A stretch of 60,000 bases of DNA, taken from NCBI RefSeq assembly GCF_026151205.1, contig NC_087076.1:5138902-5198901 (forward strand), written 5' to 3'. A program made the translations under genes and the position numbers. This document shows, in pieces, positions 22,183 through 59,339 of the stretch. The stretch's first letter is position 1; every line of letters begins with the position of its first letter. Origin of the DNA: Bolinopsis microptera (taxonomy: Eukaryota > Ctenophora > Tentaculata > Lobata > Bolinopsidae). The notes under the pieces are model-generated. The model was not told the DNA's origin, searched no databases, and saw nothing but the letters and a program-made list of their open reading frames with translations.

Positions 22183-22627
22183 GGTCACAACTATGCGTTT
22201 TATTCACTTTACTTTACAGATAGTTCTATAAACTCCTCCCTTATTAGCAGGATGATGTTTCCTACAACTGATAACCATGAAACACCTGGCTACCTACCAC
22301 TACCCAACTCAACTGCCTACCATTCCTATTGGAAGCTTTTTCACAACCTTCGGCAAAAGAGGTGGATGAAAAAGTAAGCGACTATAACTAATTTACTATC
22401 AGTAAGAATTAGATGTGCAATATATAATATATACATTATATCATATACATTATACATTATACGTGCATAATATACGTTGGTTTGAGTTTCGCTACTCGTC
22501 GTGTTAAAGCTCCTAAGATAGAGGATACAGTGTGAAACAAGAAATGGTAGTTTGTTAACGCTATCCGTTATATTCACCTCATCAACAGCGAGGAAGAACT
22601 GTTTAGCGACGAGGATCTGGTCATGTT

Positions 22628-22669
22628 TGTCATGACACGTGGTGTGACGTCACACCACGTGTCATGACA
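22628..22669. repeat. 42-bp perfect palindrome
   Basis: Uninterrupted inverted repeat with its centre between 22,648 and 22,649. Each half reads TGTCATGACACGTGGTGTGAC on its own strand apart from the last bases. It contains two CACGTG motifs and a central TGACGTCA, and sits between two duplicated copies of the E14 exon end. Confidence 0.93.
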
Positions 22670-22790
22670 TCACACCACAGGTCACACGTGTGTATTGTAG
22701 TTTATTATATTCACCTCATCAACAGCGAGGAAGAACTGTTTGGCGACGAGGATCTGGTCATGTTTGGAGGTGAGCCGGGTGTCGAAGTGG

Positions 22791-22850
22791 GACGTAATTG
22801 TGACGTAATTGTGACGTAATTGTGACGTAATAGTGACGTAATAGTGACGT
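22791..22850. repeat. 11-bp GTGACGTAATT array
   Basis: Five tandem copies of GTGACGTAATT, the last two with GTGACGTAATA. It abuts the donor side of exon E14 and is intronic for the minus-strand gene. Confidence 0.92.
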
Positions 22851-22859
22851 TATATTCAC

Positions 22860-22997
22860 CTCATCAACAGCGAGGAAGAACTGTTTAGCGACGAGGATCT
22901 GGTCATGTTTGGAGGTGAGCCGGGTGCTGAAGTGGGACCAGGTGGATAACAGCGCCTCTTCGTTTAGCGTCTCCACCTTCTCACGTACTCCTGATAC
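22860..22997 (-). CDS. Spectrin-repeat gene, exon E14
   Basis: 46 codons, phase 0 at both ends. The acceptor on the minus strand is AATTGCCCAG and the donor is GTGAATATAA. The product starts VSGVREKVETLNEEA and ends QILVAKQFFLAVDE. It continues the repeat begun by E13: together they give the W-containing helix A and most of helices B and C. A purely helical, charged composition fits a spectrin repeat. The donor end of this exon is copied twice more in the following intron. It is the last exon I can place; further exons would lie beyond 22,500 or in the noisy region. Confidence 0.78.
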
Positions 22998-23228
22998 CTG
23001 GGCAATTAGCTAATTAGTTAATTAGATATTTGGTTAATTGATTATTTAGTAATATATATATAATTACTAAATACGGTTTGACAATTTATTAATAAATCGG
23101 TCGTCAAGAGCAAATCCAGCCATTTAGGTATAATTGGTTGACATAAACATTAAACAGTTGATTACTTATAGGATATTTAATTAATCAAGGATCGTCCAGG
23201 AACAAATAATACTATCTTGCTAACTTAC

Positions 23229-23345
23229 TTCGTCTAGAAAGGATGTAAACTCGTTGCAGTATTTCTCGGTAAGCTCCAGACTGCTACCAATATCTACGTG
23301 ATCACGCAGAAAGGGCTCTCCTATCTCATCAATCCACTTGTCTAT
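23229..23345 (-). CDS. Spectrin-repeat gene, exon E13
   Basis: 39 codons, phase 0 at both ends. The acceptor is GTTATTTCAG and the donor GTAAGTTA. The product starts IDKWIDEIGEPFLRDHVDIG and ends CNEFTSFLDE. A tryptophan in helix A followed by E-x-F-L-x-x-H and G-S-S-L-E is a pattern I associate with the rod repeats of Trio/Kalirin-type proteins; this is recall, not a search. It reads directly into E14 without a frame change. Confidence 0.83.
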
Positions 23346-23351
23346 CTGAAA

Positions 23352-23495
23352 TAACAAATACTCTTTAATTCTCTATTTAAATCTGTACTGTTTTAATTAA
23401 ACAAATACTGTTTAATTCTCTATTTAATTATGTACTGTTTTAATTAAACAAATACTCTTTAATTCTCTATTAAATATGTACTGTTTTAATTAAAC
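23352..23495. repeat. ~51-bp AT-rich repeat upstream of E13 acceptor, 3 copies
   Basis: Three copies of a unit containing TCTTTAATTCTCTATTTAA and TGTACTGTTTTAATTAAAC. On the gene strand it lies immediately before the E13 acceptor, so the repeated DNA forms the pyrimidine-poor, T-rich upstream region of that splice site. Confidence 0.85.
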
Positions 23496-25292
23496 TATTT
23501 ATGAAGTAAGATACTTAGAATGACATGTTTAAAAGAATTGTAACGGACAACCTGAGAAATTTCCAGTTAAAATTATTTGCTGATGCCTGATATAATTACA
23601 AAATAACAAGATATAGAGAATATATAGGATACCTTTCTATAAGAGATTGCAAAAATAACTGAAATAAACTGATGCCTGATACAGACAATGTACACTCAAA
23701 AGGCGTCACCAAAACAAGATATTATCATGTACAAGACGTGTAATAAATATGTGCAATTATACGGGATAAAATATGCAATTATTTGGTATATCCCACCTAA
23801 AGAATATAGAAGAAGAACTGCGCCAAAAGTTTCAAAACCTCGTGATTCTCAGGACAGTCAACATGTCAACAAATAGCTACGGTCAGGTTCAGGCTGTGTT
23901 CGAGTAACAGATAGTGAGCACGTAGTAGCAGTGAACTGTGGTATCCCTTCCTTGGTATTTCAACTTTACGCTTCAGTCAAAACACTTGCCAAAAAGTAAG
24001 GTAAATTCACTTTGTCGCAGAGCTTGTTAAAAGAGTGCTCTGTTAAAAGATAAGGTAAATTACGTAAGATAAGGTAAACTGGTGGACCACACCTCACCAC
24101 TAAAACAAAGATCAGAGAAATAACAACCGTAAAAAGGAAATACACTCTGCGGCAATCCCACAAATGTGGAAAGTGTCAAAAATGATGAGTCATGATAAAT
24201 TCTTGGCATCTTGAAATCAAAATATCCGGTTGTAATGTGTTGTTGTGTGGTCAGTACGTAGTGTAGAAGATACCCTCCAAAATTAAAGCAAGTAAAGTCA
24301 CTGGAATTTAACGATTGTTTGTGTTATTTGATGAGCTAAAAGCTGGGCCGCCACCAAACTGAGTGACTAATGTTACCAAATAATATTACTGAATGTAATG
24401 TAGTTGGTTACTGAGTGACTAGTGTTACTGTTGTTGGTTAATTGGTCAAACAGCTCACTTCCGGAGGGGAAACTAGTTACAAACAATTACCCGTTTATTT
24501 ATAAACCCAATCATTGAATGTGCTCTACTGAGATGAGTAATCAAGCAAACTGTGGAAACTGGAAACTGTGGAAACTGAGGAAACTGGAGTGACATAATAT
24601 TGTTAACTCTACCGTCTGTAACTAGTACAGTAGTAGTGTGGCATATCACAAAGATAACTATTGGTAATGTACTAGGCTCTACCAAGTGTACTACCAAGTA
24701 CAATTGGTAGAGCCTTCAGTTCCCACAGGACATATAGTGTTATTGTATGTAATATCACGTGTAATTGTGGATCATATCCGCATTGTACTCATGTAAACAG
24801 TGGACTTCATTAACACGTGTTAGTAAAGATGTTAAATAAGGAGACGTATAAAAGACAGAGTTGCAGGAAACAGTAACAAGAGTATAGTATACAGTATACG
24901 GATACTGGTAGCTTGTTAAGCAGAGCAGGATAACCATTAACCACTAGTTACATCTGTCAGATAACCGTTACAACACTCTGCTCCCTAAACAAGCGTCATT
25001 CTGACGATAACGAGTATGAATATGCAGATATTTAGATTTTTAGAATATTAGGTCCCACTATTATAGACTACAATGTGCGGCCTCCCCACAAGGTTAGTCT
25101 CTACTCCGAGCATAACTAAATATCAGTATTATGCAGGCTGGGTATTAAAGTCTCTGTACTCCAATACTTCTTGAGAGAACAAAAGCAGCGAGTAACGTGA
25201 CACGCGATTAATTAGACACGTACAGAGCTCTTCAAACTTTCCATGTAACTACACAAGCGATTGAGCAATAGTAGCAATAGTTAAGGGGGCAA
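23496..25292. other. Intronic stretch (E12-E13 intron), no gene seen
   Basis: About 1.8 kb of AT-rich intron sequence. It holds short ORFs without splice support, a local GAAACTGTG micro-repeat near 24,553-24,590, and an 11-bp inverted repeat (24,675-24,685 with 24,704-24,714). I see no exon that would fit between E12 and E13, and none is needed by phase. Confidence 0.5.
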
Positions 25293-28200
25293 CAGGTAGA
25301 AGGAGGAGGTAGTGCGATTAAGGATACAGGTACTGTATGTCAGGTAGAAGGAGAAGGTAGAAGGAGGAGGTAGTGCGATTAAGGATACAGGTAGTGTATG
25401 TCAGGTAGAAGGAGAAGGTAGAAGGAGAAGGTAGTGCGATTAAGGATACAGGTAGTGTATGTCAGGTAGAAGGAGAAGGTAGAAGGAGAAGGTAGTGCGA
25501 TTAAGGATACAGGTAGTGTATGTCAGGTAGAAGGAGAAGGTAGAAGGAGGAGGTAGTGCGATTAAGGATACAGGTAGTGTATGTCAGGTAGAAGGAGAAG
25601 GTAGAAGGAGGAGGTAGTGCGATTAAGGATACAGGTAGTGTATGTCAGGTAGAAGGAGAAGGTAGAAGGAGGAGGTAGTGCGATTAAGGATACAGGTAGT
25701 GTATGTCAGGTAGAAGGAGAAGGTAGAAGGAGGAGGTAGTGCGATTAAGGATACAGGTAGTGTATGTCAGGTAGAAGGAGGAAGGTAGAAGGAGAAGGTA
25801 GTGCGATTAAGGATACAGGTAGTGTATGTCAGGTAGAAGGAGAAGGTAGAAGGAGGAGGTAGTGCGATTAAGGATACAGGTAGTGTATGTCAGGTAGAAG
25901 GAGAAGGTAGAAGGAGAAGGTAGTGCGATTAAGGATACAGGTAGTGTATGTCAGGTAGAAGGAGAAGGTAGAAGGAGGAGGTAGTGCGATTAAGGATACA
26001 GGTAGTGTATGTCAGGTAGAAGGAGAAGGTAGAAGGAGGAAGGTAGTGCGATTAAGGATACAGGTAGTGTATGTCAGGTAGAAGGAGAAGGTAGAAGAGG
26101 AGGTAGTGCGATTAAGGATACAGGTAGTGTATGTCAGGTAGAAGGAGAAGGTAGAAGGAGGAGGTAGTGCGATTAAGGATACAGGTAGTGTATGTCAGGT
26201 AGAAGGAGAAGGTAGTGCGATTAAGGATACAGGTAGTGTATGTCAGGTAGAAGGAGAAGGTAGAAGGAGGAGGTAGTGCGATTGAGGATACAGGTAGTGT
26301 ATGTCAGGTAGAAGGAGAAGGTAGAACGAGAAGGTAGTGCGATTAAGGATACAGGTAGTGTATGTCAGGTAGAAGGAGAAGGTAGAAGGAGGAGGTAGTG
26401 CGATTAAGGATACAGGTAGTGTATGTCAGGTAGAAGGAGAAGGTAGAAGGAGGAGGTAGTGCGATTAAGGATACAGGTAGTGTATGTCAGGTAGAAGGAG
26501 AAGGTAGAAGGAGAAGGTAGTGCGATTAAGGATACAGGTAGTGTATGTCAGGTAGAAGGAGAAGGTAGAAGTTAAGGAGGAGGTAGTGCGATTAAGGATA
26601 CAGGTAGTGTATGTCAGGTAGAAGGAGAAGGTAGAAGGAGAAGGTAGTGCGATTAAGGATACAGGTAGTGTATGTCAGGTAGAAGGAGAAGGTAGAAGGA
26701 GGAGGTAGTGCGATTAAGGATACAGGTAGTGTATGTCAGGTAGAAGGAGAAGGTAGAAGGAGAAGGTAGTGCGATTAAGGATACAGGTAGTGTATGTCAG
26801 GTAGAAGGAGAAGGTAGAAGGAGGAGGTAGTGCGATTAAGGATACAGGTAGTGTATGTCAGGTAGAAGGAGAAGGTAGAAGGAGGAGGTAGTGCGATTAA
26901 GGATACAGGTAGTGTATGTCAGGTAGAAGGAGAAGGTAGAAGGAGAAGGTAGTGCGATTAAGGATACAGGTAGTGTATGTCAGGTAGAAGGAGAAGGTAG
27001 AAGGAGGAGGTAGTGCGATTGAGGATACAGGTAGTGTATGTCAGGTAGAAGGAGAAGGTGGAAGGAGGAGGTAGTGCGATTAAGGATACAGGTAGTGTAT
27101 GTCAGGTAGAAGGAGAAGGTAGAAGGAGGAGGTAGTGCGATTAAGGATACAGGTAGTGTATGTCAGGTAGAAGGAGAAGGTAGAAGGAGGAGGTAGTGCG
27201 ATTAAGGATACAGGTAGTGTATGTCAGGTAGAAGGAGAAGGTAGAAGGAGGAGGTAGTGCGATTAAGGATACAGGTAGTGTATGTCAGGTAGAAGGAGAA
27301 GGTAGAAGGAATGGGTAGTGCGATTAAGGATACAGGTAGTGTATGTCAGGTAGAAGGAGAAGGTGGAAGGAGAAGGTAGTGCGATTAAGGATACAGGTAG
27401 TGTATGTCAGGTAGAAGGAGAAGGTAGAAGGAGGAGGTAGTGCGATTAAGGATACAGGTAGTGTATGTCAGGTAGAAGGAGAAGGTAGAAGGAGGAGGTA
27501 GTGCGATTAAGGATACAGGTAGTGTATGTCAGGTAAGGAAAAGGTAGAAGGAGAAGGTAGTGCGATTAAGGATACAGGTAGTGTATGTCAGGTAGAAGGA
27601 GAAGGTAGAAGGAGGAGGTAGTGCGATTAAGGATACAGGTAGTGTATGTCAGGTAGAAGGAGAAGGTAGAAGGAGGAGGTAGTGCGATTAAGGTTACAGG
27701 TAGTGTATGTCAGGTAGAAGGAGAAAGTAGAAGGAGAAGGTAGTGCGATTAAGGATACAGGTAGTGTATGTCAGGTAGAAGGAGAAGGTAGAAGGAGGAG
27801 GTAGTGCGATTAAGGATACAGGTAGTGTATGTCAGGTAGAAGGAGAAGGTAGAAGGAGAAGGTAGTGCGATTAAGGATACAGGTACTGTATGTCAGGTAG
27901 AAGGAGAAGGTAGAAGGAGGAGGTAGTGCGATTAAGGATACAGGTAGTGTATGTCAGGTAGAAGGAGAAGGTAGAAGGAGGAGGTAGTGCGATTAAGGAT
28001 ACAGGTAGTGTATGTCAGGTAGAAGGAGAAGGTAGAAGGAAGAGGTAGTGCGATTAAGGATACAGGTAGTGTATGTCAGGTAGAAGGAGAAGGTAGAAGG
28101 AGGAGGTAGTGCGATTGAGGATACAGGTAGTGTATGTCAGGTAGAAGGAGAAGGTAGAAGGAGGAGGTAGTGCGATTAAGGATACAGGTAGTGTATGTCA

Positions 28201-30932
28201 GGTAGAAGGAGAAGGTAGAAGGAGGAGGTAGTGCGATTAAGGATACAGATAGTGTATGTTAGGTAGAAGGAGAAGGTAGAAGGAGAAGGTAGTGCGATTA
28301 AGGATACAGGTAGTGTATGTCAGGTAGAAGGAGAAGGTAGAAGGAGGAGGTAGTGCGATTAAGGATACAGGTAGTGTATGTCAGGTAGAAGGAGAAGGTA
28401 GAAGGAGGAGGTAGTGCGATTAAGGATACAGGTAGTGTATGTCAGGTAGAAGGAGAAGGTAGAAGGAGAAGGTAGTGCGATTAAGGATACAGGTAGTGTA
28501 TGTCAGGTAGAAGGAGAAGGTAGAAGGAGAAGGTAGTGCGATTAAGGATACAGGTAGTGTATGTCAGGTAGAAGGAGAAGGTAGAAGAAGGAGGTAGTGC
28601 GATTAAGGATACAGGTAGTGTATGTCAGGTAGAAGAAGAAGGTAGAAGAAGGAGGTAGTGCGATTAAGGATACAGGTAGTGTATGTCAGGTAGAAGGAGA
28701 AGGTAGAAGAAGGAGGTAGTGCGATTAAGGATACAGGTAGTGTATGTCAGGTAGAAGGAGGAGGTAGTGCGATTAAGGATACAGGTAGTGTATGTCAGGT
28801 AGAAGGAGAAGGTAGAAGAAGGAGGTAGTGCGATTAAGGATACAGGTAGTGTATGTCAGGTAGAAGAAGAAGGTAGAAGGAGGAGGTAGTGCGATTAAGG
28901 ATACAGGTAGTGTATGTCAGGTAGAAGGAGAAGGTAGAAGGAGAAGGTAGTGCGATTAAGGATACAGGTAGTGTATGTCAGGTAGAAGGAGAAGGTAGAA
29001 GAAGGAGGTAGTGCGATTAAGGATACAGGTAGTGTATGTCAGGTAGAAGAAGAAGGTAGAAGGAAGAGGTAGTGCGATTAAGGATACAGGTAGTGTATGT
29101 CAGGTAGAAGGAGAAGGTAGAAGAAGGAGGTAGTGCGATTAAGGATACAGGTAGTGTATGTCAGGTAGAAGAAGAAGGTAGAAGAAGGAGGTAGTGCGAT
29201 TAAGGATACAGGTAGTGTATGTCAGGTAGAAGGAGAAGGTAGAAGAAGGAGGTAGTGCGATTAAGGATACAGGTAGTGTATGTCAGGTAGAAGGAGGAGG
29301 TAGTGCGATTAAGGATACAGGTAGTGTATGTCAGGTAGAAGGAGAAGGTAGAAGGAGAAGGTAGTACGATTAAGGATACAGGTAGTGTATGTCAGGTAGA
29401 AGGAGAAGGTAGAAGAAGGAGGTAGTGCGATTAAGGATACAGGTAGTGTATGTCAGGTAGAAGAAGAAGGTAGAAGGAGGAGGTAGTGCGATTAAGGATA
29501 CAGGTAGTGTATGTCAGGTAGAAGGAGAAGGTAGAAGGAGAAGGTGGTGCGATTAAGGATACAGGTAGTGTATGTCAGGTAGAAGGAGAAGGTAGAAGAA
29601 GGAGGTAGTGCGATTAAGGATACAGGTAGTGTATGTCAGGTAGAAGAAGAAGGTAGAAGGAAGAGGTAGTGCGATTAAGGATACAGGTAGTGTATGTCAG
29701 GTAGAAGGAGAAGGTAGAAGAAGGAGGTAGTGCGATTAGGGATACAGGTAGTGTATGTCAGGTAGAAGGAGAAGGTAGAAGGAGAAGGTAGTGCGATTAA
29801 GGATACAGGTAGTGTATGTCAGGTAGAAGGAGAAGGTAGAAGGAAGAGGTAGTGCGATTAAGGATACAGGTAGTGTATGTCAGGTAGAAGGAGAAGGTAG
29901 AAGAAGGAGGTAGTGCGATTAAGGATACAGGTAGTGTATGTCAGGTAGAAGAAGAAGCTAGAAGGAGGAGGTAGTGCGATTAAGGATACAGGTAGTGTAT
30001 GTCAGGTAGAAGGAGAAGGTAGAAGGAGAAGGTAGTGCGATTAAGGATACAGGTACTGTATGTCAGGTAGAAGGAGAAGGTAGAAGGAAGAGGTAGTGCG
30101 ATTAAGGATACAGGTAGTGTATGTCAGGTAGAAGAAGAAGGTAGAAGGAGGAGGTAGTGCGATTAAGGATACAGGTAGTGTATGTCAGGTAGAAGGAGAA
30201 GGTAGAAGGAGAAGGTAGTGCGATTAAGGATACAGGTAGTGTATGTCAGGTAGAAGGAGAAGGTAGAAGGAGGAGGTAGTTCGATTAAGGATACAGGTAG
30301 TGTATGTCAGGTAGAAGGAGAAGGTAGAAGGAGGAGGTAGTGCGATTAAGGTTACAGGTAGTGTATGTCAGGTAGAAGGAGAAGGTAGAAGGAGGAGGTA
30401 GTGCGATTGAGGATACAGGTAGTGTATGTCAGGTAGAAGGAGAAGGTAGAAGGAGGAGGTAGTGCGATTGAGGATACAGGTAGTGTATGTCAGGTAGAAG
30501 GAGAAGGTAGAAGGAGGAGGTAGTGCGATTAAGGATACAGGTAGTGTATGTCAGGTAGAAGGAGAAGGTAGAAGGAGGAGGTAGTGCGATTAAGGATACA
30601 GGTAGTGTATGTCAGGTAGAAGGAGAAGGTAGAAGGAGGAGGTAGTGCGATTAAGGTTACAGGTAGTGTGTGTCAGGTAGAAGGAGGAGGTAGAAGGAGA
30701 AGGTAGTGCGATTAAGGATACAGGTAGTGTATGTCAGGTAGAAGGAGAAGGTAGAAGGAGGAGGTAGTGCGATTAAGGTTACAGGTAGTGTATGTCAGGT
30801 AGAAGGAGAAAGTAGAAGGAGAAGGTAGTGCGATTAAGGATACAGGTAGTGTATGTCAGGTAGAAGGAGAAGGTAGAAGGAGGAGGTAGTGCGATTAAGG
30901 ATACAGGTAGTGTATGTCAGGTAGAAGGAGAA
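25293..30932. repeat. 5.6-kb array of a 61-bp minisatellite (~92 copies)
   Basis: Unit of 61 bp containing TAGTGCGATTAAGGATACAG, GTAGTGTATGTCAGGTAGAA and GGAGAAGGTAGAAGGAGG. The period is confirmed by spacing of TAGTGCGATT. Variation is concentrated in the GGAGGA, GGAGAA, GAAGGA and GAAGAG positions; GAAGGA variants cluster from about 28,560 on, and a few units are shortened. It lies wholly inside the E12-E13 intron. On the gene (minus) strand it is pyrimidine-rich and almost free of AG. Because 61 is not a multiple of 3, all frames close quickly, so it is not coding. Confidence 0.97.
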
Positions 30933-32236
30933 GTAATGTAATCATCCTAAATCCTCCACGCCCTGCCCTGTTCTGACCATCTTATGTATATCTAATGTAA
31001 TTACACATGTCTTGTAGTGTATGCCAGCCTCCAATCAAATCAGGAAATGTGCACCCATTTAGAAGTGAAGTTACCACTGTGTGTACCCCCCCCCCCCCCC
31101 CCCCCACTGAATACTGATTAATGTCGAGTTATTAGTATTTAGTGATGTTAGAATAGTATCGAGTTAGAGTACCTCCATTGGGTTAAATAATAAACAAATT
31201 AATCAATATCAACGTGTCTACCGGACAAACAAGATCTAATCAAGAACAATTAAACCAGTAGCTTGTTAGCTCTGTGACAGACGAAGTAATGTTGGCTAGA
31301 CAAGGGCAAAACTAAAACACCAGGTAACATATTTATAAATTATAAGCCTGATTCGGAACTTGGAGTGGTAATCCAAAAACATTATCATGAAGTCATGAGG
31401 ATAACTTTTAATATAAAACGGGGAAGATAACCAAGATCTGAACAAATAAACAGTAAACACTGCACCTACAGCTCTAATACACACAAAGAGTTCTGCAAGT
31501 TTGAGAGGGAACTAAAAGAGGAAGTGAACTGGAGGAGGAGGAGGAGGTGTGAATATACAGTCTACACTACACAGCAGGCAGCAATAGGTAGTACGCAGCA
31601 CGCAGCACCCTCGCAGCAGTAGGCAGCACCCTCACAGTAGGCAGCACCCTCACAGTAGGCAGCAACCTCACTTGGTGGCAGACACAGGGACACACTGTAT
31701 TTAGTGTACTACAGACAGAGAGACAGAGCGTCCCTAGTAGACTGGGAGTGACGTGGAAGTGGGCGAGTAATATGGGAATAATATGAGAATAATATGAGAA
31801 TAATATGCGAATCAGAGGATTATTCATTGCATGTGAATAATGTAGCTAGATAGAACCTGTGCATAAAATGGGGATGCGCAGTATATCTTTAATATTTATA
31901 ATATCCATACAAAAAAGTGACAAATTGTCAGAAAATGGGTTATTTTCCAAGACAGACAGAAAGAGACAACAAAGAACAATAACAAATTACACCAGTACAA
32001 AAAGGAAGAGTGATCTGCAGCTTCACGGACTGGGAGGAGAAGAGGCTGTTCGTGGGGAGGACACAGGCCGGAACCGCCAACCAACCGCACTCCGTGACGG
32101 TTGTTAGAATAGTGACTGAGTTATAGACAGCAGAAACATGTCAACATTTGACACAGTCTGCGGAGGTTGTAGTACTGGGTTAGAGATTCTACTACAGATA
32201 AAGCAGATCATAAGCTAGTTACAAAGTAATATTTAC
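30933..32236. other. Intronic stretch (E12-E13 intron), no gene seen
   Basis: About 1.3 kb between the 61-bp array and exon E12. It contains a C homopolymer (about 31,087-31,106) and a 21-bp minisatellite. ORFs at 31,567-31,827 and 31,859-32,107 have no splice or composition support. Confidence 0.5.
31563..31680. repeat. 21-bp GCAGCACCCTCACAGTAGGC array
   Basis: Three to four copies of a 21-bp unit around GCAGCACCCTCACAGTAG, plus related GCAGCAC repeats at its left end. Intronic. Confidence 0.8.
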
Positions 32237-32317
32237 CTCTTCCTTTCTCCGCTCTACTTTCTGTAACCTTAGTTCCCGTACTACTGTGTCGGCTCCCCTA
32301 AACTTCTCTATTACCGT
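32237..32317 (-). CDS. Spectrin-repeat gene, exon E12
   Basis: 27 codons, phase 0 at both ends. The acceptor is TTGTTTTTCAG with a good pyrimidine tract; the donor is GTAAATA. The product starts TVIEKFRGADTVVREL and ends RLQKVERRKEE, a highly charged helix of the kind that ends one spectrin repeat and runs into the next. E13 then supplies the tryptophan helix. The upstream intron is partly duplicated, with a second CAG. Confidence 0.75.
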
Positions 32318-32320
32318 CTG

Positions 32321-32440
32321 AAAAACAACAAGTTTAATTTAAGGTTCAGCTATAAATGTTAAATTGCTGCGAAAATAACAAGTTTAAAATAACAAGTTTA
32401 ATTTAAGGTTCAGTTATAAATGTTAAATTGCTGGTTCAAG
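32321..32440 (-). repeat. Tandem duplication carrying a second E12-like acceptor
   Basis: A segment of about 65-70 bp with AACAAGTTTAATTTAAGGTT and TATAAATGTTAAATTGCTG occurs twice just upstream (gene sense) of E12. On the minus strand the duplicate presents TTGTTATTTTCGCAG at 32,367-32,369, a near copy of the authentic TTGTTGTTTTTCAG. It is a possible decoy 3' splice site. Confidence 0.75.
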
Positions 32441-32807
32441 TAGTGAGTGAACAAAATTTAAAATCTAAAACCGGGGTAAAATCTACAACTGTATATTGGT
32501 GAATTGAGAAGAATAAGAAACTTTAAAATACAATAAATGTAGTAAGCTAACGTTACAAACCTAAACTACAATGTTACTTCCAACCTTTCACCAGCCCTCT
32601 AACTATCTAATAAGCAAACGGTTAACACACTAAATTAACACACTAAACGCAAGAATAACTACAGAAGAAAAACACAAAATACCACATTTCACATATTATA
32701 CTTTGCAAAGTGTCTCCCTCACACAGGACTATAGACACCTATATCCGGACCATGGGTAAAAGGGACAACCTTCAAACAGGGTGCCGACAACTAGTATTCT
32801 TAGTGAC

Positions 32808-32886
32808 AAAGTGCACGTGCAATGGCGTAAAGTGCACGTGCAATGGGGTAAAGTGCACGTGCAATGGCGTAAAGTGCACGTGCATT
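32808..32886. repeat. 21-bp minisatellite with GTGCACGTGCA, 4 copies
   Basis: Four copies of AAAGTGCACGTGCAATGGCG plus T, starting at 32,808, 32,829, 32,850 and 32,871. The core GCACGTGC is palindromic and contains CACGTG. The last copy is truncated. Confidence 0.95.
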
Positions 32887-33892
32887 AACACGCGGTGTTA
32901 GTGAGTGTATCTAGCACGTGTTACAGTAAGCAAGATCAGGTAGATACTGCAGGTGAGGGATGTAATTAATTTGTCAGATTAATTGGAGGTCATTAGGAAG
33001 TGAGGCAGCAGTTTCAAGTAGTAGCCAGTAGGATGTAGTTATAAGCTATTGAAGAATAGTATTTCATGATTCTACACGTACTTTAAAAATTGAATCACAG
33101 ACTTTAAGCAAAACATAAACGTTACATAACGTTAATATTTATAAATAATAATAATTATAAAAGTTTCCGAGCATAATAGAATTTCACGAACAAAAGCACG
33201 ACTAAAAACACAGACGGAGCGATAACGAAGTTACTTCTGGCAATAAAACTAGCTAATACCCAACAGTGCTAAGTGTGCACCAAGGACACGGACCGGATAA
33301 TACAATATAGTATCTACTAACTATCAACTAACCCAGCCAGACCGGGGGGAGGGGGGTCAGCTGTTATTTGCGGCTAAAAACAGCTGCACCCCCCTTCCTA
33401 CTAGCCTGCATATTACTTTACAACTGTTGCTCTACCACCACTGACCACTAGGCTTGTGAGAATCTAGTATATTACTCCTTAACTGTCACAGCTCAAGTGA
33501 TACAGGTATAGTACCAGGTATAGTAGTTACAGTTACTATCTGAACGAATGAGATGTGTGGATATAAAGATCCCTTCTACCACTCAGTCCACAGGAGCTAG
33601 GAAACATTAACAGAGAGGTATTAGCCAGCTATTAACAGAGAGGTATTGGGATTATTAATAACACTACTCCTCATAACCTATTACCTACCTGTAAACTTGT
33701 GTAGTATTACTAACTTAGAGCATCGATGGTAAATACGTCAAAAAATCGCCTGTAAATACGCCGTATTCAAAAATTCTAAGAAATACGTGAAATAGGCAAA
33801 ATTTGGCGCTTAAATTCTTTGATGGTAAAATTGCTCAAAATACGCGCGTATCTCTTTCGAAATACGTGATTACAGATTAGTGATATTTGCGC

Positions 33893-36425: not shown

Positions 36426-38130
36426 GAAACGGAATAATGTGGAGAAATAAGGGTTGGTTATTAGACTTAACAGACAACGTCATCAGCCTCGCATATAAAC
36501 ATATGATATAATTTAATTTAATATATGCCCAAGCTTCGCAACAAAACCAACAAAAACTCCAAACACTAAACGAAGTAACAATAATAAAACACGATTAAAC
36601 CCGATGTTAAAAGAATGCAGTAAACTAGTTACTACTTATTCCGACCAGCGAGGAGATTAATTCTATTTTGATCTCGTTCCGTACCACGGTATTTGAGCAA
36701 AGGTCGACTACCTCGTACCCCTCGTACCCCTCCGCAAGCGTTATAGTACCCTATAATCCTGCTACGTGACTTAACCGGCTTTATTATCCTTGTTGCAGGA
36801 TAAAGCCGGAGTACGTGGCGGAGAATGAGCGTGATGAACGGATATCAATGTAACTGTTACACTTGAAATCATAACTTAATTGTGTATATCCTGAAGCTGC
36901 TCAGAAAGAAGATTAACCTGTCTGTGATGTTTCAGGAAGTTTGACAGAGAACACTGACTGGAAATATTCTAAATTTACAAACTCACGATTATCAAATTAC
37001 CAAGGTTATGTCTCTTAATTATTACCAACTTATGAGAATAATTAACTGGTTTATACAATAAGAAGTGCTACATGCGCAGTACAACGGCGAGCAGGAGTAA
37101 AGAGTGCTATTTGACGTATAATTATCACTGTAATATTATGACAAGCACAAACCATATTGAAACTTTTCAGTGATGGGAAATATTAGCCGACCATGGTAAT
37201 CGAATATTAACTGATACGGCCATATATTGATTAATATAAGATATCGATGAATTTTAGTGATATTGCATTTCGTTCAATCTATAAATAAATTTCGAGATAG
37301 CAATCAAGAGAAAAATGTGGGTCTTAAACCACTAAATACAAAACCATTAAATACGAGATATTAGAGACTTTTAAAAGGCAGGTGTAATGTGTATGCGCTA
37401 TTGAACTTGCTACGTGGTGTTCATCTAACACATGCCCTGACATGTTTTAGTGGCTGTGTTTTCCAAAACTGTGACGTCACACCACGTGTCATGACGTCAC
37501 GCCACGTGTGTGACGTCATCTAACACATGCCCTAACATGTAGTTTCTTAGTGCTGTGTTTTCCAAAACAACTGTAGGTCTTCCAATGGTTGTGTGACATT
37601 GAAGCCGCCCTAAGTCAAGTAATTGGTGCTGTCTTCCAATGGTTGTGTGACATTGAAGCCGCCCTAAGTCAAGTAAGGCAAATTGGTGCTGTCGCCAGGT
37701 CAGGAATACCACCAAAATGAGCAGATAAAAGATAACTTGAGCTAAACAAGATGGTAGAGGTTATCCGAGTATGGGGGAGTATCCAGTACTACAAGGTTAC
37801 ACTTGAAGTGTATTATACAATGTGGTGTTCCGGTTTCCAGGGTATAAAACCTGTGTCCTGTGGATTGTGGACTTTTAGAAATGTTTCAGAGTGGATATGT
37901 GGCTTCAACAACCTCCACAGTCTAGATCTTAGTTGTGTTATAATAACGTCACTAGTGATAACGTGAGCAGTGAAATCATTCTGCTATGACTTAATGCAAG
38001 GTACTATGTGTGAACTGTGAATAGACAAAAGATCTTTCAAAATTTTAACACATAACGCAACAGATACTCACAAAAACTAAAGTAAAGACGATATATAATA
38101 GAGATGCAACGAGTGAGGGTTACTGATACA
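36426..38130. other. Intronic stretch (E11-E12 intron), no secure gene
   Basis: About 1.7 kb. It holds a short hairpin (near 36,767-36,810), a duplication with TGACGTCA and CACGTG motifs (about 37,420-37,575), and a two-copy 42-bp spectrin-like segment on the plus strand (37,577-37,672). None of these is needed by the reconstructed minus-strand transcript. Confidence 0.45.
37577..37672 (+). repeat. Two-copy exon-like segment on the opposite strand
   Basis: Two identical 42-bp segments (37,577-37,618 and 37,631-37,672), 54 bp apart. On the plus strand each encodes VFQWLCDIEAALSQ and is followed by GTAA (GTAATT, GTAAGG), like a 5' splice site. The first is preceded by CTGTAG, the second has no AG before it. 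A tryptophan helix with D-I-E-A-A-L looks like the start of a spectrin repeat, but the strand is opposite to the gene. It may be an inverted exon relic or chance. Confidence 0.4.
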
Positions 38131-41907: not shown

Positions 41908-41949
41908 TGCTCCGGGCTCCACTGTTGTGGCGTTCTCTTGTTGATGTTC
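41908..41949 (-). CDS. Spectrin-repeat gene, exon E10
   Basis: 14 codons, phase 0 at both ends, product EHQQENATTVEPGA. The acceptor is TTTGCCTTCTAG and the donor GTGAGTTCTG, both strong. The composition (polar, T/P/G) suggests a loop or linker between helices rather than helix. It follows E9, whose end is also loop-like, so this may be an extended inter-helix loop or an alternatively used microexon. Confidence 0.68.
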
Positions 41950-42674: not shown

Positions 42675-42724
42675 GTTAACCTGGGGAAGAGAAACAAACT
42701 AACCATGATGTGTTTAGCAGGCTT
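42675..42724 (-). repeat. Duplicate of exon E9 3' end with splice donor
   Basis: A copy of the E9 exon end plus intron start. The last 21 exon bases (42,704-42,724, coding AKHIM at the junction) are followed on the minus strand by GTTAGTTTGT, as at the real donor. The copies are separated by the 20-bp CACGTG/TGACGTCA array. The intronic part differs by a small deletion. It is a decoy donor with no acceptor of its own. Confidence 0.88.
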
Positions 42725-42798
42725 GTCACACCACGTGACATGACGTCACACCACGTGACATGACGTCACACCACGTGACATGACGTCACACCACGTGT
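42725..42798. repeat. 20-bp GTCACACCACGTGACATGAC array, 4 copies
   Basis: Copies start at 42,725, 42,745, 42,765 and 42,785. Each junction makes TGACGTCA and each unit has CACGTG. It lies exactly between the decoy and the authentic end of exon E9. Confidence 0.95.
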
Positions 42799-42829: not shown

Positions 42830-42997
42830 CATGATGTGTTTAGCAGGCTTATCAAGCGCCCCCGCAGAACAAGTCTCCTTCATCAATCTAATCAGCTCCA
42901 GCATTGTCTCACTTTGCCTCACTATTTCGCTAGATTGGTGGAGCACTCCGCTCTTCAGGGACTGGAACTCGTTGTAAGTGGCAGCAGTAGCTTTAGC
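42830..42997 (-). CDS. Spectrin-repeat gene, exon E9
   Basis: 56 codons, phase 0 at both ends. The acceptor is ACACTAACCCAG and the donor GTTAGTTTGT. The product starts AKATAATYNEFQSLKSG, continues HQSSEIVRQSETMLELIRLM and ends ALDKPAKHIM. Long amphipathic helix with regular hydrophobic spacing fits helix B of a spectrin repeat; the C-terminal part looks like a loop. The exon end is duplicated downstream. Confidence 0.82.
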
Positions 42998-43449: not shown

Positions 43450-43557
43450 CTTGTGCACCTTGATGAGTTGTCGTAGTGATCTGATGTTAGTGTCTACATC
43501 TCTTATCTGTGTATAAAGGTGCGTGGTGAACAGTAGATACTGCTCACATTGCTGCTT
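43450..43557 (-). CDS. Spectrin-repeat gene, exon E8
   Basis: 36 codons, phase 0 at both ends. The acceptor is CCTTTATTTACAG and the donor GTAAGACC. The product starts KQQCEQYLLFTTHLYTQI and ends SLRQLIKVHK. The hydrophobic heptad pattern continues from E7 into helix A of the next repeat. A G homopolymer (about 43,586-43,597) lies just upstream of the acceptor in gene sense. Confidence 0.82.
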
Positions 43558-46440: not shown

Positions 46441-46454
46441 GAACCGGAAGGAGG

Positions 46455-46562: not shown

Positions 46563-46860
46563 GTAGTAGGTAAGAACCGTAAGAACCCGTCAATAATACT
46601 CGTTAGAACACAACCCCAGAGTATCGGTACGGTATGTGTACAGTTTAGTGGTTGAGAATGGACAATACAATCTACAATCTCGACTCATTACCCTTATTCA
46701 AATACATATTATGAACATATTTATAATGATATGTTTCTCCAAAACAAGCTTTAGTCTGAAAACATTCACGAGGGACGAGTGAGGAATTTCACACGGAAAA
46801 ATTAACAAAACACATATTTTCAGAGCAGCAGCAAATATTTAAAGGTAAATATTATAACTT
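46563..46860. other. Intronic stretch, no gene seen
   Basis: About 300 bp of AT-rich sequence between the G-rich microsatellite and the donor-repeat array. Nothing recognised. Confidence 0.5.
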
Positions 46861-46861
46861 A

Positions 46862-47177
46862 ATAATATTCAACAGATCAAGAGTAACTCTTACCTTAATA
46901 ATATTGAACAGATCAAGAGTAACTCTTACCTTAATAATATTGAACAGATCAAGAGTAACTCTTACCTTAATAATATTAAACAGATCAAGAGTAACTCTTA
47001 CCTTAATAATATTGAACAGATCAAGAGTAACTCTTACCTTAAGTTTGAAGACAGATAAAGAGTAACTCTTACCTTAAGTTTGAAGACAGATCAAGAGTAA
47101 CTCTTACCTTAAGTTTGAAGACAGATCAAGAGTAACTCTTACCTTAAGTTTGAAGACAGATAAAGAGTAACTCTTAC
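46862..47177 (-). repeat. Splice-donor minisatellite downstream of exon E7 (8 decoys)
   Basis: A tandem array whose unit is the end of exon E7 plus the start of its intron. Donor motifs AAG|GTAAGAG on the minus strand occur with TACC at 46,891, 46,927, 46,963, 46,999 (36-bp steps), then 47,035, 47,070, 47,105, 47,140 (35-bp steps), and finally the authentic site at 47,175. The nearer four keep exon-like CTTCAAACTTAAG; the farther four have drifted to CAATATTATTAAG. All keep the donor itself unchanged. Confidence 0.92.
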
Positions 47178-47342
47178 CTTCAGTTTGAAGACAGCCCAAT
47201 GATTCATAACTTCTCCGATGATGTTGATGGCGTTCTCATTTCCCTCAGCTACAAGCTTGCTAGAACTGCACTTCAACCCGTCTATATCTGCTAACAGGGG
47301 ATCTAGTCTCCTTTCTAATTCCTCCAGCTTCTTCAACCTCCC
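47178..47342 (-). CDS. Spectrin-repeat gene, exon E7
   Basis: 55 codons, phase 0 at both ends. The acceptor is GTTGTCTAACAG and the donor GTAAGAGTTA. The product starts GRLKKLEELERRLDPLLADI, includes NENAINIIGEVMNHWAVF and ends FKLK. Charged heptads followed by a tryptophan segment are typical of helices B to C of a spectrin repeat. The last codons and the donor are the source of the eight-copy array next to it. Confidence 0.88.
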
Positions 47343-47730: not shown

Positions 47731-47882
47731 GCCAGGGGGGGGGGGCTGGTACGTAGCCAGGGGGGTTGGTGCGTAGCCAGGGGGCTGGTACGTAGCCAGG
47801 GGGGTGGGGGGCTGGTACGTAGCCAGGGGGGGGGGGCTGGTACGTAGCCAGGGGGGGGGGGGGGGCTGGGCGTGACCAGGCA
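47731..47882. repeat. ~20-bp ACGTAGCCAGGGGGGCTGGT array with long G runs
   Basis: About seven copies of GTACGTAGCCAGGGGGGCTG, with G tracts of 5 to 14. Two flanking segments GCGTGACCAGGCACG bracket it. Overlapping proline-rich ORFs on the minus strand are shadows of the repeat. Confidence 0.88.
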
Positions 47883-47893
47883 CGCAGCCACTA

Positions 47894-48325
47894 CCTACCT
47901 TGATAACCTCCAGACTAGTAGTGATATCATAGAAAGGTGTCATGAACTAACCCCCCCCCCCCACTACTACCCCCCCCCCACCACTACCCCCACTACCTAC
48001 CTTGATAACCTCTAGACTGGTGGTGATATCATAGAAAGGTGTCATGAACTAACCCCCCCCCCCCCCACTACTACCCCCCCCCCCCCCCCCCCCCACTACC
48101 CCCACTACCTACCTTGATAACCTCTAGACTGGTGGTGATATCATAGAAAGGTGTCATGAACTAACCCCCCCCCCCCACTACTACCCCCCCCCCCCCCCCC
48201 CACTACCCCCACTACCTACCTTGATAACCTCTAGACTGGTGGTGATATCATAGAAAGGTGTCATGAACTAACCCCCCCCCCCACTACTACCCCCCCCCCC
48301 CCCCACCACTACCCCCACTACCTAC
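47894..48325 (-). repeat. Four tandem copies of exon E6 3' end with splice donor
   Basis: Units of about 102-112 bp. Each holds the last 50 bases or so of exon E6 (coding FMTPFYDITTSLEVIK on the minus strand) followed by the donor GTAGGTAGTGG and then poly-G/CCACTACC spacer. Exon-like parts start at 47,899, 48,001, 48,113 and 48,220; the authentic exon starts at 48,326. Length differences come from the C runs. Each copy is preceded by TTAG on the gene strand but by G runs and not by a pyrimidine tract, so they look like decoy donors and not complete exons. Confidence 0.93.
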
Positions 48326-48437
48326 CTTGATAACCTCCAGACTGGTGGTGATATCATAGAAAGGTGTCATGAACTCCGCTTCTAACGTTTCTAGATATGC
48401 TCTCAGTTTATAACCCTGCTGTTCCAACTTTCTGATC
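48326..48437 (-). CDS. Spectrin-repeat gene, exon E6
   Basis: 112 bp: one base completing a codon from E5 (CG|G, Arg), then 37 codons. The acceptor is GTTTGTTTTCAG and the donor GTAGGTAGTG. The product reads IRKLEQQGYKLRAYLETLEA and ends YDITTSLEVIK. It is a spectrin-type helix running into the B helix of the next repeat. The phase-2/phase-1 match with E5 supports both exon calls. Confidence 0.88.
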
Positions 48438-49980: not shown

Positions 49981-50514
49981 ATTGTGAAATCACGTGAGGG
50001 ATTGTGACGTCACGTGAGGGATTGTGACGTCACGTGAGGGATTGTGACGTCACGTGAGGGATTGTGACGTCACGTGAGGGATTGTGACGTCACGTGAGGG
50101 ATTGTGACGTCACGTGAGGGATTGTGACGTCACGTGAGGGATTGTGACGTCACGTGAGGGATTGTGACGTCACGTGAGGGATTGTGACGTCACGTGAGGG
50201 ATTGTGACGTCACGTGAAGGATTGTGACGTCACGTGAAGGATTGTGACGTCACGTGAAGGATTGTGACGTCACGTGAAGGATTGTGACGTCACGTGAAGG
50301 ATTGTGACGTCACGTGAAGGATTGTGACGTCACGTGAAGGATTGTGACGTCACGTGAAGGATTGTGACGTCACGTGAAGGATTGTGACGTCACGTGAAGG
50401 ATTGTGACGTCACGTGAAGGATTGTGACGTCACGTGAGGGATTGTGACGTCACGTGAGGGATTGTGACGTCACGTGAAGGATTGTGACGTCACGTGAAGG
50501 ATTGTGACGTCACA
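49981..50514. repeat. 20-bp TGACGTCACGTGAGG array, ~27 copies
   Basis: About 27 copies of GATTGTGACGTCACGTGAGG. Each contains TGACGTCA (a CRE-type palindrome) overlapping TCACGTGA (with the CACGTG E-box). Copies fall into blocks: GAGG first, then GAAGG from about 50,218, then two GAGG, then GAAGG. No indels seen. On the gene strand the unit contains no AG. It is in the E5-E6 intron, and the first intron bases after the E5 donor already read GTACGTGACGTCAC, like the array. Confidence 0.97.
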
Positions 50515-50636
50515 GAATAGGTATGTAACAGTATATTCACTTGGTAGAAGTAGTGTGAGCGGCTCTGTAGACTTGCCACATCCCACAGGTAGCATTGTAG
50601 TGTGACGTCACGTGAGAGAGGTGTGACGTCACGTAC

Positions 50637-50728
50637 CGCTCAGCTGCTGAGTACTGCTTGTTCGACGCTAGCAGCTTAATCAGGTGCTTACTGTCTTGTT
50701 GCAGCCCGTTATACAGCTCCGTTAGTAC
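50637..50728 (-). CDS. Spectrin-repeat gene, exon E5
   Basis: 92 bp: 30 codons plus two bases (CG) that pair with the first base of E6. The acceptor is probably CTATCTGACCAG and the donor GTACGTGACG. The product starts VLTELYNGLQQDSKHLIKLL and ends NKQYSAAE-R. The open frame continues upstream to about 50,845, but those residues are less charged and look intronic; an acceptor at CATCAG (near 50,796) is the alternative. It follows E4 in phase 0. Confidence 0.77.
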
Positions 50729-51014: not shown

Positions 51015-51113
51015 CTCCCCCTGTCTCTGTAACTGTACTAGCAGCTCTTGGCTAGCTAATCTGCTTTGTTGCTGTTCTATTGCTGACTGCCAGTTCGTCA
51101 ACCACGCTTTTAC
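51015..51113 (-). CDS. Spectrin-repeat gene, exon E4
   Basis: 33 codons, phase 0 at both ends. The acceptor is ACATGTTTGCAG and the donor GTTAGTTACC. The product starts VKAWLTNWQSAIEQQQSRL and ends LVQLQRQGE. The W-x-x-x-W helix A is a hallmark of a spectrin repeat start, and it follows directly on the SVTFHQKLEQ end of E3, the expected inter-repeat join. Confidence 0.88.
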
Positions 51114-56592: not shown

Positions 56593-57255
56593 TTGTTATA
56601 AGGTCTGCTCGTATTAGGTAGAACACGATGTTAGCTCAAAATGAGCGCTCTGTTAGATTAAGCATTTGTCGTATGATATGGATTAAACAGGATGGTTGCC
56701 CAGTTTATCAGAACCAGTCACTGGAAATAAACCTAAGCTGAGAGACTAATTACCGATAATCAGAGGCTAATACTCCTCTTTCAGCATGATTACCTGGGGA
56801 AATGCAATCGGATTCGGTAAAATTGGGTCTGTTAATTACGATGTTTAATCATGGTGATAATCTTGCTATCAAGATCACTCCTGATTGGACAGTCAATTTA
56901 TAGGATTGTGATCGGTGAAATTCATACGCAATTACTTCAGAGTCAGACCACTCAGTCAGAGTGGTCTGACTTTATGGTCACCACGGTTACCACCACGGTT
57001 ACCCTCACCACTCAGTTCATGACCACATATCTAAATTCCACTTTATAAGAAACATGCATCTCAGGTGAGAAATTCAAACTTAAACTCAACCAAATATCAT
57101 GAGCAAATAACCCTTATATAAACGAAATTCAAGTTCACCTTAGCAGAAAGAACAGTTTAGAGAACTCCAAAACTTAATGGAGGCCCACACTCCTTATATG
57201 GGCATCACGTGGGCCCACACTTATGGAAAGTAACACTGTATGATGTTGTTGGTAC
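56593..57255. other. Intronic stretch (E3-E4 intron), no gene seen
   Basis: About 660 bp. A short inverted pair, AGTCAGACCACTC and GAGTGGTCTGACT, lies at about 56,940-56,972. At 57,223-57,240 there is a copy of an 18-base piece from the end of exon E3. Confidence 0.5.
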
Positions 57256-57288
57256 CTGTTCTAGTTTCTGATGGAAAGTAACACTGTA
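57223..57288 (-). repeat. 48-bp-spaced duplicate of an E3 exon segment
   Basis: ATGGAAAGTAACACTGTA occurs in the intron (57,223-57,240) and in the exon (57,271-57,288, coding YSVTFH). The donor lies between them and is not itself duplicated. It looks like an incipient, single-step version of the exon-end arrays seen elsewhere. Confidence 0.8.
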
Positions 57289-57427
57289 GCTGAGTGCCTC
57301 CTTGTGAGTGTTGAGTCTAGAAGTAAGTCCCTGCCACAGAGTGTCCAGCCTCTTGGTCGTTTCCCTGACTCTCTCTCCGTCTACATTACCCGCCTTAACC
57401 AGCTGTTCTGCTGTCTTCAACAGTTGA
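57256..57427 (-). CDS. Spectrin-repeat gene, exon E3
   Basis: 172 bp: one base (T) completing AG|T (Ser) from E2, then 57 codons, ending in phase 0. The acceptor is TTTAATACTCCTCAG and the donor GTACCAACAAC. The product starts QLLKTAEQLVKAGNVDGERV, includes KRLDTLWQGLTSRLNTHKEA and ends SYSVTFHQKLEQ. TAEQLV-AG followed by helix C ending SVTFH is what I recall of Trio/Kalirin spectrin repeats. The most diagnostic exon in the window. Confidence 0.9.
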
Positions 57428-57816
57428 CTGAGGAGTATTAAACAAGTCAGTATTACACAGTATCTTCACCGCAATTACAAGTATCTCAACCAGTCAATGA
57501 TTTAAGAAACTGCTAGACGCTCTGATTCGATGAACGTTACAGTTGGAAATAGTTTGCGGTCACAATTCCCTTGATAGTTTACAAAACAGGTTTAGCTTAA
57601 TAAGTAAGAACCTTTTGCTCTTTTGTAAGACACGAGCTAGAAGCGTCTGAAAGCAAGACGGGGGGGGGGGGGGGGGGCTCCCAGCGAGACAGTAGTCTCT
57701 ATATTGTATCTAATTAATCAAATTTTACCTTTTTAAATTTCACGGACAAAGTAAATGAATCGAGGTTGTAACTTTAAAGTAATAACGGAAACACAACACC
57801 ACACAGAGGCCCTTAC
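57428..57816. other. E2-E3 intron, no gene seen
   Basis: 389 bp, with a G homopolymer at about 57,660-57,677. No array or decoy splice site. Confidence 0.6.
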
Positions 57817-57956
57817 CTTGCAGTGGCGTAAGTCCGGAGAGCTCCAGCTTCCAGCTGCTCGTGATCTCTCAGAAGTAGAGCTGCTTCAAGATGAGACTTT
57901 CCAATCTCACACTTCTGACCAAACGCAGCGAGATGTGCCTCTATCTGCTGAGTAAC
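57817..57956 (-). CDS. Spectrin-repeat gene, exon E2
   Basis: 140 bp: 46 codons plus AG. The acceptor is TCCCTCGACCCTCAG and the donor GTAAGGGCC. The product starts VTQQIEAHLAAFGQKCEIGK, includes SHLEAALLLRDHEQLEAGAL and ends RTYATA. Its phase joins E3 as AG|T. The IGKSHLEAA-LLRDHE stretch is helix B of a spectrin repeat, with the G-K-S-x-L-E form recalled for Trio/Kalirin rods. The upstream intron abuts it with an acceptor-like minisatellite. Confidence 0.9.
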
Positions 57957-57974
57957 CTGAGGGTCGAGGGAGAG

Positions 57975-58648
57975 AGGTGGTAAGTGGGGGTTGTGGGGGT
58001 GGACTAGAGGAGAAGTGGGGGTTTTGGGGTAGACTAGAGGAGAAGTGGGGGTTGTGGGGGTAGACTAGAGGAGAAGTGGGGGTTTTGGGGGTATACTAGA
58101 GGAGAAGTGGGGGTTTTGGGGTAGACTAGAGGAGGAGTGGGGGTTTTGGGGTAGACTAGAGGAGAAGTGGGGGTTTTGGGGGTAGACTAGAGGAGAAGTG
58201 TGGGTTTTGGGGGTAGACTAGAGGAGAAGTGGGGGTTTTGGGGGTAAACTAGAGGAAAAGTGGGGGTTTTGGGGTAGACTAGAGGAGAAGTGGGGGTTGT
58301 GGGGGTAGACTAGAGGAGAAGTGTGGGTTTTGGGGGTAGACTAGAGGAGAAGTGGGGGTTTTGGGGGTAAACTAGAGGAAAAGTGGGGGTTTTGGGGTAG
58401 ACTAGAGGAGAAGTGGGGGTTGTGGGGTAGACTAGAGGAGAAGTGGGGGTTTTGGGGGTAAACTAGAGGAAAAGTGGGGGTTTTGGGGTAGACTAGAGGA
58501 GAAGTGGGGGTTTTGGGGGTATACTAGAGGAGAAGTGGGGGTTTTGGGGTAGACTAAAGGAGGAGTGGTGGTTTTGGGGTAGACTAGAGGAGAAGTCGGG
58601 GTTTTGGGGGTAGACTAGAGGAGAAGTGGGGGTTTTGGGGGTAGACTA
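57975..58648. repeat. ~29-30-bp G-rich array, acceptor-like on the gene strand (~22 copies)
   Basis: About 22 copies of GACTAGAGGAGAAGTGGGGG plus TTTTGGGGTA (29-30 bp). On the minus strand each unit reads AACCCCCACTTCTCCTCTAG: a pyrimidine tract ending in TAG, i.e. a 3' splice site look-alike. It lies immediately upstream (gene sense) of the authentic E2 acceptor. The G tracts could also form quadruplexes on the plus strand. Confidence 0.95.
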
Positions 58649-59294
58649 ACGTACCTTGTTAGTAAAAGGAATGATCTAGATTAAACTAACGTACCTTGTT
58701 AGTAAAAGGAATGATCTAGATTGAACTGACGTACCTTGTTAGTAAAAGGAATGATCTAGATTGAACTAACGTACCTTGTTAGTAAAAGGAATGATCTAGA
58801 TTAAACTGACGTACCTTGCTAGTAAAAGGAATGATCTAGATTAAACTAACGTACCTTGTTAGTAAAAGGAATGATCTAGATTAAACTAACGTACCTTGTT
58901 AGTAAAAGGAATGATCTAGATTAAACCAACGTACCTTGTTAGTAAAAGGAATGATCTAGATTAAACTGACGTACCTTGTTAGTAAAAGGAATGATCTAGG
59001 TTAAACTAACGTACCTTGTTAGTAAAAGGAATGATCTAGGTTAAACTAACGTACCTTGTTAGTAAAAGGAATGATCTAGATTAAACTAACGTACCTTGTT
59101 AGTAAAAGGAATGATCTAGATTAAACTGACGTACCTTGCTAGTAAAAGGAATGATCTAGATTAAACTAATGTACCTTGTTAGTAAAAGGAATGATCTAGA
59201 TTAAACTAATGTACCTTGTTAGTAGAAGGAATGATCTAGATTGAACTGACGTACCTTGTTAGTAAAAGGAATGATCTAGATTAAACTAACGTAC
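58649..59294 (-). repeat. Splice-donor minisatellite downstream of exon E1 (16 decoys)
   Basis: 16 copies of a 40-bp unit, GTACC positions stepping by 40 from 58,651 to 59,251, then the authentic site at 59,291. On the minus strand each unit gives ACTAACAAG|GTACGTTAG, matching the real exon end GCCAACAAG|GTACGTTAG. One or two copies carry a substitution near the site (TAGCAAG; GTACATTAG). The rest of the unit, AATCTAGATCATTCCTTTT, is intronic. Confidence 0.95.
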
Positions 59295-59339
59295 CTTGTT
59301 GGCTCCCTCCATGAAAATCACCTCCTTATCTCTCACTAA
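59295..59339 (-). CDS. Spectrin-repeat gene, exon E1
   Basis: 15 codons, phase 0 at both ends, product LVRDKEVIFMEGANK. The acceptor is AATGTTTGTTTCAG and the donor GTACGTTAG. It is short but joins E2 in frame. Its end is the template of the 16-copy donor array. Exon numbering starts here only because it is the first exon readable in the window; the true 5' end of the gene is to the right. Confidence 0.72.

Follow-up and report, generated by a model that had tools for sequence, protein, structure and literature searches.

Border-Spanning Repeats in Other Systems

Tandem repeats that span exon-intron borders have been described in the amphioxus gene Adh3, where they were named mirages, and also in the globins BflGb6 and BflGb9, PGBD5 and troponin C (PMC3087553, PMC3902484). 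Mirages are found at both borders, with units of 10–160 bp, instability in length and splice signals in many units. Splicing looked normal by reverse transcription polymerase chain reaction, intron gain was proposed, and somatic instability was reported for the Adh3 mirage. The present analysis concerns a similar set of repeats in the ctenophore Bolinopsis microptera. It was carried out on a stretch of 60,000 nucleotides, C5:5138902-5198901 (hereafter, the window), of a genome of 264,652,675 bases in 232 contigs. The window carries on its minus strand a series of predicted exons of a gene resembling Trio and Kalirin, in which several donor sites (5' splice sites) are followed in the intron by tandem copies of the exon end and the donor, called decoys here. 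Judged by the features tested in the sequence, these border arrays appear to be of the same kind as the amphioxus mirages.

The likeness rests on three features. The repeats span exon-intron borders, splice signals lie inside the repeat units, and length is unstable, as the array behind exon E14 has two decoys in one copy of a duplicated block and five in the other (the two copies being alleles or paralogues). The differences are that the phylum is another one, that exon and decoy have changed jointly between the block copies, and that as many as five donors are involved within 37 kb of a single gene, followed at greater distance by two more donors and an acceptor.

Two other systems may be compared. 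In the potato RNA-dependent RNA polymerase gene, an intron was gained by tandem genomic duplication (PMC4974935). As in Trio, a tandem duplication within a gene bears on splice signals; however, the Trio copies sit in an existing intron and make no new one. In C. elegans, CeRep25B, likewise an intronic minisatellite, was linked to multiple splicing decisions (PMC4039745), but it is one dispersed family, whereas the Trio repeats are copies of the neighbouring exon end. The available parts of PMC8527503 and PMC2206037 hold nothing on border repeats. No mirage-type report outside lancelets was recognised in a full-text literature search judged by titles and the beginnings of abstracts, with most subscription papers outside its coverage.

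Donor Arrays in the Trio/Kalirin-Like Gene

An earlier note on this DNA, made from the letters alone, had counted about 31 decoys at five donors, and 31 were obtained here (16 at E1, four at E6, eight at E7, one at E9 and two at E14). Each of the five donors heads tandem copies of its exon end and donor, and the matches cover 6–79 exon nt and at least 10 intron nt. The arrays are the following:

58650..59294, minus strand, E1 donor array: 16 decoys, 40-bp unit starting 6 nt inside the exon
47880..48325, minus strand, E6 donor array: 4 decoys at +106, +213, +325 and +427
46860..47177, minus strand, E7 donor array: 8 decoys, spacing 35–36 bp
42691..42727, minus strand, E9 decoy: 24 exon nt (one mismatch) and 12 intron nt, 126 bp downstream
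22567..22859, minus strand, E14 donor array: 2 decoys, one at 145 bp (79 exon nt) and one at 282 bp (52 exon nt)

The E1 decoys share the last 6 exon bases (8 if one mismatch is allowed), and 14 of the 16 keep the score of the authentic donor. The spacing at E6 is 102–112, with 50 exon nt in every decoy. At E7, decoys 1–4 carry 17 exon nt, while the last four keep the donor and the intron half and have an altered exon half. The array units are unrelated in length (40, 102–112, 35–36, 126 and 137–145 bp) and in sequence, which supports the independent origins that the earlier note had proposed. The partial, donor-free copy that it had seen at E3 was also confirmed by eye: 18 exon bases (TACAGTGTTACTTTCCAT) recur from 16 bp into the intron, a copy not scored by the repeat criterion used. 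Behind E5, a 20-bp ACGTGACGTCAC array in the next intron resembles the donor from +3 onward, and the exon part is not copied. A 20-bp array ACGTGACGTCACAATCC(C/T)TC lies behind E5 at 49990-50510, and TGACGTCA-like words occur near 42780, 51640 and 22650 as well.

The exons to which these arrays belong are listed below. Twelve exons and one tentative exon were recovered rather than the 14 of the earlier note, and the proportion of donors with arrays is therefore five of 13 and not five of 14.

59295..59339, minus strand, E1: 45 nt, LVRDKEVIFMEGANK, donor AAG|GTACGT
57817..57956, minus strand, E2: spectrin repeat; start 57956 picked by eye, the exon scorer's start being 58064
57256..57427, minus strand, E3: spectrin repeat
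51015..51113, minus strand, E4: acceptor TTTGCAG
50637..50728, minus strand, E5: donor set at 50636 by eye; the scorer favoured a longer form to 50541
48326..48437, minus strand, E6: donor AAG|GTAGGT
47178..47342, minus strand, E7: donor AAG|GTAAGA
43450..43557, minus strand, E8: without a border copy
42830..42997, minus strand, E9: donor ATG|GTTAGT
41908..41949, minus strand, tentative E10: EHQQENATTVEPGA; prediction only
32237..32317, minus strand, E13: TVIEKFRGADTVVRELRLQKVERRKEE; second copy at C5:5079034
23229..23345, minus strand, exon IDKWIDEIGEPFLRDH...: spectrin repeat; second copy at C5:5069064
22860..22997, minus strand, E14: VSGVREKVETL...FFLAVDE; donor GAG|GTGAAT; second copy at C5:5067456

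Minus-strand exons from 59339 to 22860 code for spectrin-repeat sequence, with Pfam Spectrin matches at E 1.2e-6 and 2.1e-4, both under Pfam's cut-off score. Further on, on the same strand, follow a RhoGEF domain (Pfam RhoGEF 1.1e-24; top PDB matches Trio and Kalirin) and a kinase domain (Pfam 1.8e-28). The series of predicted exons is thus assigned to one Trio/Kalirin-like RhoGEF-kinase gene with spectrin repeats, because order and strand are shared among exons that are predictions and not a transcript; those outside the window come from the exon scorer written for this analysis. Two predicted spectrin-like exons, at 5046081 and 5045769, matched no Pfam family. Upstream of the window, C5:5198902-5262901 (64,000 bases) consists of N throughout, which hides the 5' part of the gene. 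Repeat-like or plus-strand candidates, some with border-spanning repeats, were left out of the exon counts (among them plus-strand 5032338, 5044209 and 5183156 and minus-strand 5117099, 5102677 and 5089607), as were secondary exon predictions within the E14 arrays.

Acceptor-Side Copies and Arrays beyond the Window

The theme recurs elsewhere in the region of this gene, where two more donors and one acceptor with decoys were found beyond the window. The donor array at C5:5030753 has eight decoys with a 38-bp unit and that at C5:5029159 seven decoys of 65–71 bp, both about 108–110 kb past the window edge. The exon at C5:5030753 opens with its own ATG; it could belong to a separate gene or serve as an alternative first exon. 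Further on, the acceptor of the kinase exon has five decoys spaced 56–57 bp, and two of the six copies read CTTCAG by eye. Within the window, the E4 acceptor (TTTGCAG) has one copy 48 bp upstream. The pattern is therefore not restricted to donors. A related case is the plus-strand exon candidate C5:5044209-5044342 (locus L026), the acceptor of which lies at the edge of an acceptor-spanning 61-bp array.

The situation at E2 is less clear. A 31-bp array at 57980-58650, upstream of this exon, has units that end in a pyrimidine tract and ctctag, so that acceptor-like sites are repeated. The array stops about 25 nt upstream of the E2 start at 57956, and the exon scorer ran E2 into it (58064); the exon may therefore start inside the array.

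Placement of the Arrays Compared with Chance

Local direct repeats occupy 42% of the intron positions, and with such coverage an overlap at five of 13 donors is unremarkable in itself. Bare coverage was rejected as a test, since a few big arrays dominate it, and placement tests were used for this reason. Arrays were put at random and barred from swallowing exons or lying inside them. With 36 linked arrays, the runs averaged 0.96 donors against the five seen, and a fraction of 0.0008 of the 4000 runs reached five or more. For 55 unlinked intervals, the corresponding values were 1.12 donors and 0.0027 of 3000 runs. These P values are optimistic, because the test was post hoc and the gene had been chosen for its arrays. 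For acceptors, one was seen against 0.98 (36 arrays) and 1.09 (55 intervals) expected, and the count in the window rises to two if E2 starts at 58064. The comparison with random positions that the earlier note had called for, run here in the window only, thus gave donors in excess of chance and acceptors near expectation.

Joint Change of Exon and Decoys

The block at 20242-33720 of the window (minus strand, 13.5 kb) is duplicated at C5:5064484-5080458 (16 kb). In longer matches outside the E14 array, the two copies are 88–95% identical. They may represent a true duplication, and thus paralogues, or alleles in the form of unmerged haplotypes. The block holds three Trio exons (E13, the next exon and E14), and the number of E14 decoys is two in the window block against five in the other. 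The next-to-last E14 decoy is common to both blocks, with the same T>C change at -28 and the same downstream junction. At -55, however, this decoy agrees with the exon of its own block, both having C in the window copy and T in the second copy. A synonymous change is thus common to the exon and the full-length decoys within each block, which indicates that the end of exon E14 and its array evolve together. At -55, exon and decoy have accordingly changed jointly, by conversion or unequal exchange. At 25294-30933, a 61-bp AGGTAGAAGGAG unit, strongly G-rich on the plus strand, is repeated over 5.6 kb; this array recurs in the second block at C5:5071117-5076800.

A coding imprint was also found when the exon halves of the decoys were compared with the exons. 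There were 13 distinct differences in eight arrays; nine were synonymous, where 3.2 would be expected (P 0.0012), and four were not. This comparison excluded decoys 5–8 of E7, and the length of the exon halves was capped (at 6 nt for E1 and, in the second copy of E14, at 75 for the full decoys), with the result that differences at -7 of E1 and -76 of E14 fall outside the 13. The E14 difference at -28 was entered once per block and one codon gives two changes; the effective number is accordingly small. Because the decoys have no obvious coding role, the synonymous excess points to renewal of the decoys from an exon that is itself under selection.

The predicted effect of decoy use bears on function. 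Use of a donor decoy would lead to a stop codon in 49 of 51 cases and to a frameshift in the other two, and none of the 51 would leave an open in-frame message. This argues against a function in donor redundancy, which the earlier note had listed among its possible explanations. In 42 of the 51 decoys, the printed donor score equals that of the authentic site; strength therefore cannot decide between them, and the choice must rest on position or on exon signals. At the kinase-exon acceptor, splicing to the nearest decoy would lengthen the message by 57 nt and keep the reading frame open, and a longer form of the protein is possible by this route.

Other Genes and Genome-Wide Word Counts

No clear border array was found in 36 exon pieces of four myosin genes, where repeat coverage was 3–27%. 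The sample comprised 36 of 83 matches, two of them without an acceptor candidate, and C3:9154255-9154485, a second copy of a neighbouring exon piece, was left out. At one myosin border of locus L032, two weaker donor and acceptor candidates have one spanning repeat and the strongest donor has none. Two arbitrary 10-kb stretches with nine exon candidates likewise gave no border array. Repeats are sparser at these other genes than at the Trio/Kalirin-like locus. The exon-border theme thus holds as a recurrent one in the region of this gene, and its extension to a general phenomenon was not borne out by the myosin pieces. At L032, the myosin head piece 105-167 is matched twice in succession (C3:9154012-9154203 and 9154255-9154485); these tandem exon copies are possibly mutually exclusive exons.

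Genome-wide triples of one word with gaps of 10–42 bases were also counted, the word read backwards serving as control. Donor words were found in 1508 triples against 6 backwards (AAGGTAAG), 460 against 0 (AAGGTAAGT) and 3483 against 110 (AGGTAAG), and the acceptor word TTTGCAG in 704 against 62. CpG, which is present in backward TTTGCAG, may be depleted in this genome. For AGATGAG, a neutral word that equals AGGTAAG in base make-up, there were 1210 triples against 1561 backwards. The matches overlap inside arrays, and a few big arrays can steer such counts; among the matches listed, all those of AAGGTAAG fall in one array, C1:1105103-1108952. The counts were consequently dropped as proof of a donor excess, for which they are suggestive at most. 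When the 134 distinct arrays of the DNA stretches examined (268 unit strands) were scored, donors of score 7 were found in 25 units against 25 in the backward reading and those of score 8 in 9 against 15, and only at score 9 (5 against 1) and score 10 (3 against 0) did the forward reading exceed the backward one.

Possible Explanations

The arrays are probably exon-border minisatellites of the mirage kind, which would arise by ordinary tandem duplication and be tolerated as long as splicing uses the exon-adjacent donor. A short tandem duplication would by chance span the end of an exon together with its donor, without being aimed at the border. The message would be unaffected while the exon-adjacent donor is used, so that the duplication survives, and the array would then grow, shrink and exchange sequence. 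The exon end, being the first unit of the array, would join in this exchange. A decoy acceptor lies upstream and is met first from the branch point, and it may be more harmful than a decoy donor downstream, which would produce an excess of donors over acceptors. Some points weigh against this account. Random placement predicts about one donor and about one acceptor, and five and one were found; plain tolerance therefore needs either an extra asymmetry of this sort or a process directed at borders. Such an asymmetry is in turn uncertain, given the kinase-exon acceptor array, the possible case of E2 and the plus-strand candidate at C5:5044209. In addition, the two block copies may be haplotypes misassembled in tandem, which would alter the meaning of their comparison. 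A border-directed process would be one in which events linked to transcription or splicing, such as R-loop formation or the stalling of a fork where the exon ends, duplicate sequence preferentially at donors. It would account for the donors in excess of random placement in this stretch, for the arrays of E1, E7, E9 and 5030753 that begin 6–25 nt from the exon end and for the donor-word triples above their backward controls (1508/6, 460/0 and 3483/110). However, the 36 myosin pieces and the nine other exon candidates lack a clear case, the neutral word is as frequent as it is (1210, 1561 backwards), donor-bearing units in the 134 arrays are in excess only at scores 9 and 10 and not at 7 or 8, and acceptor copies exist, TTTGCAG also standing above its control. 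Such a process is possible but unlikely, and the evidence does not separate mutation focused on borders from tolerance. The same doubt applies to a further-reaching version, in which borders, mostly donors, are copied again and again by a process coupled to transcription or splicing, and the intronic copies feed back into the coding exon and partly rewrite exon ends.

Two other explanations seem still less probable than a border-directed process. Decoys could bind the U1 small nuclear ribonucleoprotein and so protect the nascent intron, delay splicing or silence the gene by unproductive splicing. The authentic donor score of most decoys (42 of 51) and the stop codon that nearly always follows their use would suit such a function, but the copy number differs between the block copies (two against five), local repeats fill 42% of the intron positions regardless, and units and positions vary from exon to exon; a functional role is hence quite improbable. 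Coincidence in a repeat-laden gene, or an artefact of assembly, is suggested by the same repeat coverage and by the fact that the gene was picked for its arrays. Against it stand the 0.96 donors obtained by random placement where five were seen, and the E14 array, which is read twice, in two block copies and with different copy numbers. It is accordingly given very little weight. Exon-border minisatellites that splicing tolerates are thus the preferred explanation.

Other Observations in the Region

On the plus strand at 37577-37717, inside an intron of the minus-strand gene, two tandem copies of VFQWLCDIEAALSQ are found, the second of which is followed by a donor-like CAA|GTAAGG. Two arrays with a common unit of 59–60 bp are found at 1-1023 and 7951-14428, and CAGACCCAC arrays at 4198-5665 and 17422-18187. 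Outside the window, at C5:5061623-5064118 (locus L024, plus strand), open frames among predicted exons resemble by eye a reverse transcriptase of the long interspersed nuclear element type.

Implications

This locus would extend mirages, known from a few amphioxus genes, to a ctenophore, and it presents several of them within a single gene. E1 offers a natural test piece for how the spliceosome chooses one donor among up to 17, of which 15 have an equal score. The arrays are also test pieces for the way in which new introns could arise from duplications at borders, and for sequence exchange of an exon with its copies in the intron.

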